Below are positions 49,594 through 51,508 of a stretch of DNA of 64,000 nt, one piece after another (position 1 is the stretch's first letter; the number at the start of each line of letters is the position of its first letter). Source of the stretch: Deltaproteobacteria bacterium (GTDB lineage: Bacteria; Myxococcota_A; UBA9160; PR03); NCBI GenBank assembly GCA_035063765.1, contig JAPSFT010000002.1:1-64000 (forward strand). Reading direction: 5' to 3'. The position numbers and the translations under genes are program-made. Below the pieces are notes generated by a model. The model saw nothing but the letters and a program-made list of their open reading frames with translations. It did no database searches and had not been told where the DNA came from.

Positions 49594-49761
49594 GCGTTCC
49601 GCCCGGAACGATCCGGGGGTGCGGAGCACGGATCCGTACCCCGCGCTGCTGCGCGGCGGCCGGCGGGGTTCGGGCGGGCGAGCGGTTGCGCGGAGAGCTG
49701 CGGCTCATGGTGCGGGCACGTGGGTTGCAATCCCACGGGGCCCGGCGCGGCGGGGCGCCGG
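49594..49761 (+). promoter_or_regulatory. Structured leader upstream of the TPR gene
   Basis: The 357-base gap 49,421-49,777 holds no gene I can support. From 49,594 it contains several hairpins: CGTTCC/GGAACG (49,594-49,609), GATCCG/CGGATC (49,610-49,634), GTGGG/CCCAC with loop TTGCAAT (49,720-49,736) and CCGGCGC/GCGCCGG (49,742-49,761). The last ends against the GAGGGGGAGG ribosome-binding site. It may be a cis-regulatory RNA; I recognise no known riboswitch class. Confidence 0.4.
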
Positions 49762-50361: not shown

Positions 50362-50451
50362 GTGGGTAGCGTGATCAAGTGGCGCCGCAGGAAGATGCGC
50401 AAGCACAAGAAGCGCAAGCTGCTCAAGCGCCAGCGCCACAAGCGCCGGTAG
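50362..50451 (+). CDS. bS22/AURKAIP1-COX24-like small basic ribosomal protein
   Basis: 29 residues, GTG start with GGAG 8 bases upstream. The sequence MGSVIKWRRRKMRKHKKRKL, then LKRQRHKRR, matches the tiny AURKAIP1/COX24-domain proteins. The mycobacterial member (bS22) has been found bound to the small ribosomal subunit and is related to mitochondrial mS38. More than half of its residues are Arg or Lys. Such short genes are easily missed by gene callers. It lies in its own transcription unit between the TPR gene and the structured leader. Confidence 0.85.
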   Translation: MGSVIKWRRRKMRKHKKRKLLKRQRHKRR

Positions 50452-50652
50452 CCGCTCCGGCTCCCCTCCGTCCCGTGCTCCGATCCGCCGCGCTCGCTTC
50501 GCGGCGCGGGGCTTCCGTGCGTCCGGATTTCGCTCGCCTCCGATCCATCCGGGGGCTCTTGCCGCACGCGCATCGCCGCGCGATCGGAGGCGAAAACGAC
50601 CTCGGCCCCGCAGCTTCGATCTTCATCACTTTGATTTTCTGACGTTTCTTAC

Positions 50653-50681
50653 TTGACTCGGCTTTGGGGACGGTGTAAGGG
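50653..50681 (+). promoter_or_regulatory. Predicted strong promoter with A/T-rich UP-like element
   Basis: TTGACT (50,653-50,658), a 17-base spacer and TAAGGG (50,676-50,681). Upstream, 50,614-50,652 is about two-thirds A/T by my count (runs such as TTTGATTTTCTGACGTTTCT), which is exceptional in this genome and resembles an UP element bound by the alpha C-terminal domain. It would drive the hairpin-rich leader at 50,695. 50,452-50,613 upstream holds GC-rich sequence with no gene I can support. Confidence 0.6.
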
Positions 50682-50694
50682 TGACTCGCAAGAA

Positions 50695-50903
50695 CGGCTC
50701 TAGAGCCGCGGATTGTGGCCACAACGAGGGCGGACTTTCACGAAGTTTGCCGTCAAGTCGCCGGAACCGACGCCCGATGAGGGCGCAAAGATTCCCAGGG
50801 GATGCGTTTCCTGGGAACGGGCCCGAGCGACGTGGACTGATGGCTCCCGTCGAATGGCGGGAGCCGGATCGGGAAAGGGGCAGGGGATCGGCCCGACGGG
50901 CCG
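50695..50903 (+). ncRNA. Hairpin-rich leader or small RNA of unknown class
   Basis: Consecutive stem-loops: a 14-bp palindrome CGGCTCTAGAGCCG (50,695-50,708); TTGTGGCCACAA (50,713-50,724); GGCGGACTT/AAGTTTGCC with two G-U pairs (50,729-50,751); CGCCC/GGGCG (50,771-50,785); TTCCCAGG/CCTGGGAA (50,792-50,817); GGCTCCCG/CGGGAGCC (50,842-50,865); CGGCCC/GGGCCG (50,889-50,903). It starts about 8-14 bases after a predicted strong promoter and precedes a histone-like peptide gene by ~60 bases. I recognise no 6S, tmRNA, RNase P or SRP motif. It may be a cis-acting leader or an sRNA with a short ORF. Confidence 0.55.
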
Positions 50904-50966
50904 GGCTCCAACCTCGAAACCGCACGGCCGCGGGGCTGGGCCACGACAAGGGGGGTGACCCAAGCT

Positions 50967-51068
50967 ATGGCAGCTCGACGCAAGAAGGCGGCCTCGAAGA
51001 AGGCCTCTCGCAAGAAGGCCGGAACCAAGAAGGCCGCACGGAAGAAGGCCCGCCGCAAGTCGGCCTAG
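50967..51068 (+). CDS. 33-residue Lys/Arg/Ala-rich histone H1-like peptide
   Basis: MAARRKKAASKKASRKKAGT, then KKAARKKARRKSA: about half Lys+Arg, built from repeated KKA/RKKA units like the C-terminal tails of histone H1, AlgP and Hc1. GGGGGG (50,950-50,955) lies 11 bases before the ATG. It probably binds DNA or RNA in the nucleoid. The strong upstream promoter and strong downstream terminator suggest high expression as a one-gene unit. A short peptide of this composition could arise by chance, but the context argues for a real gene. Confidence 0.75.
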   Translation: MAARRKKAASKKASRKKAGTKKAARKKARRKSA

Positions 51069-51110
51069 CCGACTCCGGCGACTTGGGCCTTTCTTCAGGG
51101 AAGGTCTGGG

Positions 51111-51148
51111 ACCCCGGCCGGCGCTCTGCGCCGGCCGGGGTTTCCTTC
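51111..51148 (+). terminator. Rho-independent terminator of the histone-like gene
   Basis: Perfect 12-bp stem CCCCGGCCGGCG (51,112-51,123) / CGCCGGCCGGGG (51,129-51,140) with loop CTCTG, extended by an A-T pair, then TTTCCTT. It lies 43 bases after the stop codon of the 33-residue gene. Its right half is the unit of the tandem repeat that follows. Confidence 0.85.
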
Positions 51149-51268
51149 ATCAGGCGTGCGCTCTGCGCCGGCCGGGGTTTCCTTCATCAGGCGTGCGCTC
51201 TGCGCCGGCCGGGGCTTCCTTCATCAGACGTGCGCTCTGCGCCGGCCGGGGTTTCCTTCGTCGGGCCA
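51121..51268. repeat. Four tandem 37-bp repeats of the terminator right arm
   Basis: Units begin at 51,121, 51,158, 51,195 and 51,232 with GCGCTCTGCGCCGGCCGGGG, then a T-rich TTTCCTTCATCAGGCGT. The third has one C for T, and the third and fourth differ by a base or two at their ends; the last diverges after CCTTCG. Only the first unit is preceded by the complementary left arm. The array ends just before the rpoZ -10 region. The near-identity of units points to recent slippage or unequal exchange. Confidence 0.9.
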
Positions 51269-51301: not shown

Positions 51302-51508
51302 GTGGCCCGCATCACCGTCGAAGACTGCATCCAGCGCGTCCCGAACCGCTTCCACCTGGTCCAGATGGCGGCGATCCGCGCCAAGCAGCTCAAGCGCGGC
51401 TCGGGCGCGCTGATCCAGCAGGGCGAGAACAAGGAAGTGGTGACGGCGCTGCGCGAGATCGCGGCCGGCTACATCAAGCCCGACTACGCCGAGGAGCCCG
51501 CCGAGTAG
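51302..51508 (+). CDS. rpoZ: RNA polymerase omega subunit
   Basis: 68 residues, GTG start with AGGAGGA upstream. MARITVEDCIQRVPNRFHLV and the AAIRAKQLKRGSGALIQQGE block, then NKEVVTALREIAAGYI, are diagnostic of omega, which aids RNA polymerase assembly and forms part of a ppGpp site in proteobacteria. It is not beside gmk or spoT as in many genomes. It converges on the minus-strand kinase-like gene 25 bases away. Confidence 0.96.
   Translation: MARITVEDCIQRVPNRFHLVQMAAIRAKQLKRGSGALIQQGENKEVVTALREIAAGYIKPDYAEEPAE

Follow-up and report, generated by a model that had tools for sequence, protein, structure and literature searches.

Genomic context of the leader

The analysed window, a stretch of 64 kb with a GC content of 73.5%, was found to contain a small bS22 30S ribosomal protein gene (GTG start, 29 aa, COX24-like), followed by the presence of an AT-rich tract, a promoter region, a structured leader, a short histone H1-like open reading frame, a tandem terminator-stem array and rpoZ (Table 1). 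The bS22 gene was a conserved neighbour of the leader, and the order bS22-leader-H1-rpoZ was found often among the 64 loci of the order in which the leader was detected.

Table 1. Features of the leader locus and their supporting evidence (positions in the 64-kb window)
Feature	Position	Strand	Evidence
bS22 30S ribosomal protein gene, upstream neighbour	50364..50451	+	NF047430 E 4.2e-10; PF08213
AT-rich, UP-element-like tract	50619..50652	+	top-ranked AT-rich stretch in the window
-35 element TTGACT	50653..50658	+	TTGAC in 64/64 relatives
Extended -10 region, TGTAAGGGT in the window; consensus TGTTAGCGT	50674..50682	+	column counts, 64 relatives
Conserved core (covariance model R1)	50679..50803	+	own genome E 2.5e-24; 64/80 genomes of the order
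5′ tail GCAAG	50688..50692	+	GCAA in 64/64
P1 5′ strand, CGGCTCTAGAGCCGCGGATTGTGGC	50695..50719	+	register, shuffle and location tests; in minimum-energy fold
P2 stem-loop, conserved internal-loop motif TCAAGT (UCAAGU in RNA)	50728..50760	+	both-sided changes at pairs
P3 stem-loop, CCGATNNGG apex	50771..50785	+	near-invariant loop, partial covariation
Lineage-specific arms (50792-50817, 50842-50865, 50889-50903)	50787..50918	+	about 56% identity to genus-mate
P1 3′ strand, ACCGCACGGCCGCGGGGCTGGGCCA	50919..50943	+	register, shuffle and location tests; in minimum-energy fold
Ribosome-binding site GGGGGGTGACCC, can form GGG-GUGA-CCC	50950..50961	+	motif counts in 64 leaders
33-aa histone H1-like ORF MAARRKKAASKKASRKKAGTKKAARKKARRKSA	50967..51068	+	same gene behind the element in 64/64
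Terminator stem (51112-51140) with its near-identical tandem copies	51112..51266	+	TRF
rpoZ (RNA polymerase omega), downstream neighbour	51302..51508	+	TIGR00690 E 5.2e-19

The UP-like A/T-rich tract and the TTGACT -35 element described in the initial annotation were both found in place. Ranked by AT content, the tract was among the top two 40-mers of the window, and a run of at least five T nucleotides occupied its position in 61/64 relatives. A strict sigma-70 scan of the window listed zero sites because the -10 region is weak; despite this, the promoter claim held, with TTGAC conserved upstream of the element in every relative. The -10 region of the 64 relatives was TGnTAnnnT-like, and the distance from TTGAC to the invariant GCAA was near-fixed (35 nt in 51 of the 64). 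From the extended -10-like consensus, transcription is predicted to start at about 50688, at or adjoining GCAA.

Downstream of the open reading frame, the stem of the perfect 12-bp terminator that had been proposed was present, but a strict terminator scan, in which a T run is required, did not list it. The stem was found to be the first copy of the tandem array between the H1-like ORF and rpoZ (37-bp period, about 3.9 copies, 94% match, 51121-51266). The array was poorly conserved in the genus-mate. The same scan listed no terminator in the leader, and no T run, as an intrinsic-terminator attenuator would carry, was found in the sequence behind the leader hairpins.

The H1-like gene and its protein

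A frame beginning MA(A)RKK and rich in Lys, Arg and Ala was found directly behind every copy of the element (64/64 loci extracted), with its start codon 112-414 nt from GCAA. The DNA of the 33-codon ORF was 96% identical to that of the genus-mate, followed by 84% for rpoZ and 53-56% for the flanking noncoding DNA; the nucleotide identity, above that of rpoZ and of the noncoding flanks, identifies the ORF as a real conserved short gene, as the initial annotation had held for its histone-like peptide. One protein search with an H1-like relative returned this ORF as the only match in its own genome.

The length of the H1-like proteins was found to reach about 150 residues or more, and it was 33-38 residues in the own genus and a sister genus. 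Among the six genomes of the own family (loci L090, L095, L087, L099, L085 and L102), the protein contained 155 aa in G003 and 33-38 aa in G000, G001, G002, G004 and G005, and the leader was kept in all six, whatever the protein length. Members of this H1-like protein family are usually longer, and the 33-residue ORF represents a shortened form. No Pfam or NCBIfam model reached its cut-off for these proteins; the histone H1-like model NF038053 gave at best 17.9 bits against a cut-off of 80, for a 113-aa relative, and no match for the ORF of the window. Composition and repeats were nevertheless H1-like. K/R-rich paralogues elsewhere were found to contain ordinary upstream regions lacking the GGG-CCC motif described below.

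Distribution and novelty of the conserved core

The core of the leader was about 113 nt long. The covariance model R1 was built from an alignment of sequences of 23 relatives, which had been found by DNA search, and it matched exactly once per genome in each genome of the order in which it was detected. In the own genome, the next best match after the single copy had an E value of 1.8, which is the level of chance. In a sample of the phylum outside the order (n=379 genomes), just two weak matches were found, in G138 and G295; neither contained an H1-like gene downstream and both were taken as chance. Judged by these searches, the feature goes beyond one genome and is conserved, at one copy per genome, in an uncultured order of Myxococcota-like bacteria.

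No Rfam family (4227 models; Rfam 15) matched the window or the loci of 16 relatives at the gathering threshold, in agreement with the earlier remark that the RNA fits no known structured class. A permissive Rfam scan gave chance-level matches only, on the terminator and on upstream DNA. The literature searched, which covered leaders of H1-like genes, RNA motifs and UBA9160, gave no earlier description of the leader. ARAGORN called zero tRNAs in the window, including the stretch 49700-49760, where a tRNA T-arm-like sequence (gtgggttgcaatcccac) is present. The own assembly (G000) gave no 16S or 23S rRNA match.

Structure of the leader

The fold of the leader was more stable than that of its dinucleotide shuffles (z = -5.95; 0/200 shuffles as good). 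The initial annotation had described seven consecutive stem-loops. The palindromes were found where it had placed them, and P2 and P3 proved to be conserved local hairpins, but the arms between 50792 and 50903 were lineage-specific, and the first palindrome (50695-50708) is better explained mainly as a strand of a long-range helix, P1, formed with 50919-50943. P2 was found to contain two-sided changes at 5/5 modelled pairs. The loop motifs TCAAGT in P2 and CCGATAGG in P3 were near-invariant, CCGA in P3 being nearly invariant across relatives, and the pair counts of P2 and P3 were overall above slid and shuffled controls. The length of the region holding the lineage-specific arms differed widely among genomes.

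The register and shuffle tests of P1 were made on the two leader ends aligned independently. In the P1 register, 67.6% of pairs were standard; the 18 slid registers gave 30-45%, and none of 500 row shuffles exceeded 64.2%. Two-sided changes numbered 91, and no shuffle among the 500 gave more than 64. The P1 5′ strand had its best partner beside the ribosome-binding site in 39/55 leaders (8.2 expected); own partners were better than swapped partners in sum and better on average than shuffled partners (mean z -2.0). Relatedness among the genomes is not fully removed by these tests. Paired strands at the aligned ends are exemplified by GGUUUGGU/ACCAAAUC in L091, GGUUCGAUU/AAUCGGAUC in L116 and UCGUCGCGGU/ACCGCGACGA in L130. 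P1 was also present in the unconstrained fold of the window sequence from 50688. A first RNAalifold run on a MAFFT alignment gave few pairs and missed P1, because the P1 3′ strand lay outside that alignment.

Alignment of relatives and a check for covariation had been proposed in the initial annotation; the element was found to be conserved and to contain compensatory changes, and an unsupervised covariation screen, scored against a phylogenetic null, gave no significant pair (best P1 pair E about 8). The case for P1 therefore rests on the register, shuffle and location controls, which support the helix. In single-sequence folds, the minimum-energy structure of about one third of the leaders was without P1, and a few genomes contained leaders shorter than 130 nt, with little room for the P1 3′ strand. 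The 3′ end of P1 lies about 6 nt upstream of the ribosome-binding site, and its 5′ strand is shared with a local hairpin, CGGCUC/GAGCCG.

The ribosome-binding site was G-rich, followed by the presence of a conserved CCC: GGG-N(2-5)-CCC was found in 63/64 leaders, with a GNRA loop in 49/64. The GUGA loop of the window could alternatively be read as extended complementarity to the 16S rRNA end; the GNRA reading is preferred because the variants GAAA and GUAA fit it better. In two genomes the H1 gene was kept but CCC was absent, namely G027, in which the core was lost, and G013, in which it was reduced to a P3-like remnant; these two cases hint that CCC functions together with the core. The G027 locus (L146) kept the TTGAC promoter besides the H1-like gene, and the G013 locus is L145.

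Comparison with known RNA elements and proteins

Ribosomal protein leaders such as the Deltaproteobacteria L20 leader (PMC7247131) are likewise structured, of limited taxonomic range and placed before a gene for a small basic protein, and regulation by product binding is presumed for them (PMC7247131). The gene is different here and the leader has no Rfam match; neither bS22 nor histone genes are mentioned in that paper. Orphan candidate riboswitches and structured RNA motifs likewise combine a conserved fold with near-invariant loops and precede a single gene type, but none of those in Rfam 15 matches the leader. Metabolite riboswitches are not typically tied to one gene for a histone-like protein.

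The 6S RNA (RF00013) likewise contains a closing helix that joins the two RNA ends. It was rejected as an identity, the window and the loci of 16 relatives having no RF00013 match at the gathering score and G002 having a separate 6S match elsewhere. Across the order, the 6S model matched just 2 of 41 whole genomes, so that 6S RNA is divergent or missed there.

AlgP (PMC9239181) and Chlamydia Hc2 (PMC2848022) share the H1-like composition, being Lys/Ala-rich and built of repeats; they are DNA-binding and vary in size by repeat number (PMC9239181, PMC2848022). The proteins described here differ in lying below the cut-off of every Pfam and NCBIfam model. No leader is discussed in the AlgP paper (PMC9239181).

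Proposed function and alternative explanations

The leader has a conserved structure with compensatory change and a 5′ position before one gene type (64/64). On this evidence it is proposed, with a probability of about 60%, to be a new, structured mRNA leader acting in cis to control the translation of an H1-like, presumably nucleic-acid-binding protein, and it probably sets the amount of this DNA-packaging protein that is made. The initial annotation had left the choice between a cis-regulatory leader, a dual-function sRNA and a new ncRNA family; the evidence favours a cis-regulatory leader that is itself the new family, since the H1-like gene immediately follows all 64 copies, and the genomes concerned gave no copy at any other site. 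The simplest account is that the leader acts in cis on how the H1-like mRNA is translated or how stable it is, because of the one-gene linkage, the lack of an attenuator and the position of P1, which abuts the ribosome-binding site.

The strong promoter would direct transcription from near 50688, and the leader would then fold into a multibranched domain closed by the long-range P1, displaying the conserved motifs UCAAGU (P2), CCGAUAGG (P3) and GCAA (5′ tail). The ribosome-binding site could close on itself as a GGG-GNRA-CCC mini-hairpin. Opening and closing of P1, perhaps against the local CGGCUC/GAGCCG hairpin, might then govern ribosome access or mRNA stability. The leading guess for the signal is feedback by the Lys/Arg-rich H1-like product itself. 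A new class of RNA switch, in which the leader senses the H1-like protein (or the nucleoid or growth state) and the local 5′ hairpin is swapped for P1, is a tentative extension of this reading.

The main rival is a constitutive protective fold, which would sense nothing but would keep the ribosome site clear and protect a short, highly abundant mRNA against decay. A stabilising structure would look similar, and the strong promoter anatomy, the freedom of the arms to vary between lineages and the repeated terminators, which suggest an abundant transcript, would all suit it. The near-invariant GCAA, UCAAGU and CCGAUAGG motifs and the CCC behind the ribosome-binding site, however, exceed what generic stability needs, and such a passive role is considered rather unlikely.

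That the leader is released, or is itself an abundant RNA that acts in trans or has a dual function, with the short ORF secondary, could explain how the peptide shrank to 33 residues while the leader stayed; the strong promoter and the conservation of the leader in several relatives with an ORF of only 33-38 aa point the same way. However, all 64 copies accompany the H1 gene, the terminator scan gave no terminator-like site, P1 ends at the ribosome site and the DNA of the 33-aa ORF is itself 96% conserved. There is little positive support for an independent or dual-function sRNA, and such a role is judged improbable.

Binding of the leader by a protein of the ribosome or of transcription, such as the product of bS22 or rpoZ, would couple the nucleoid protein to growth and would suit the conserved bS22-leader-H1-rpoZ neighbourhood; it is rated as a distinctly remote prospect. 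Least probable is DNA-level control around the promoter in place of RNA structure, which the palindrome CGGCTCTAGAGCCG directly behind the predicted start and the strong conservation around the promoter might suggest, but which sits poorly with the long-range P1 covariation across 110-400 nt and with conserved motifs far downstream.

The cis-acting leader offers a defined element for a search for a ligand or a binding protein. The literature searches gave no earlier account of chromatin dosage being controlled through RNA. The histone-like protein has been trimmed to 33 residues while the leader stays conserved, and, if the switch reading were true, a bacterial histone-like protein would be dosed by an RNA feedback device. 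Nucleoid proteins need tight dosing, and the pairing of the leader with a histone-like gene throughout an uncultured order suggests that chromatin dosage may be controlled by way of RNA.
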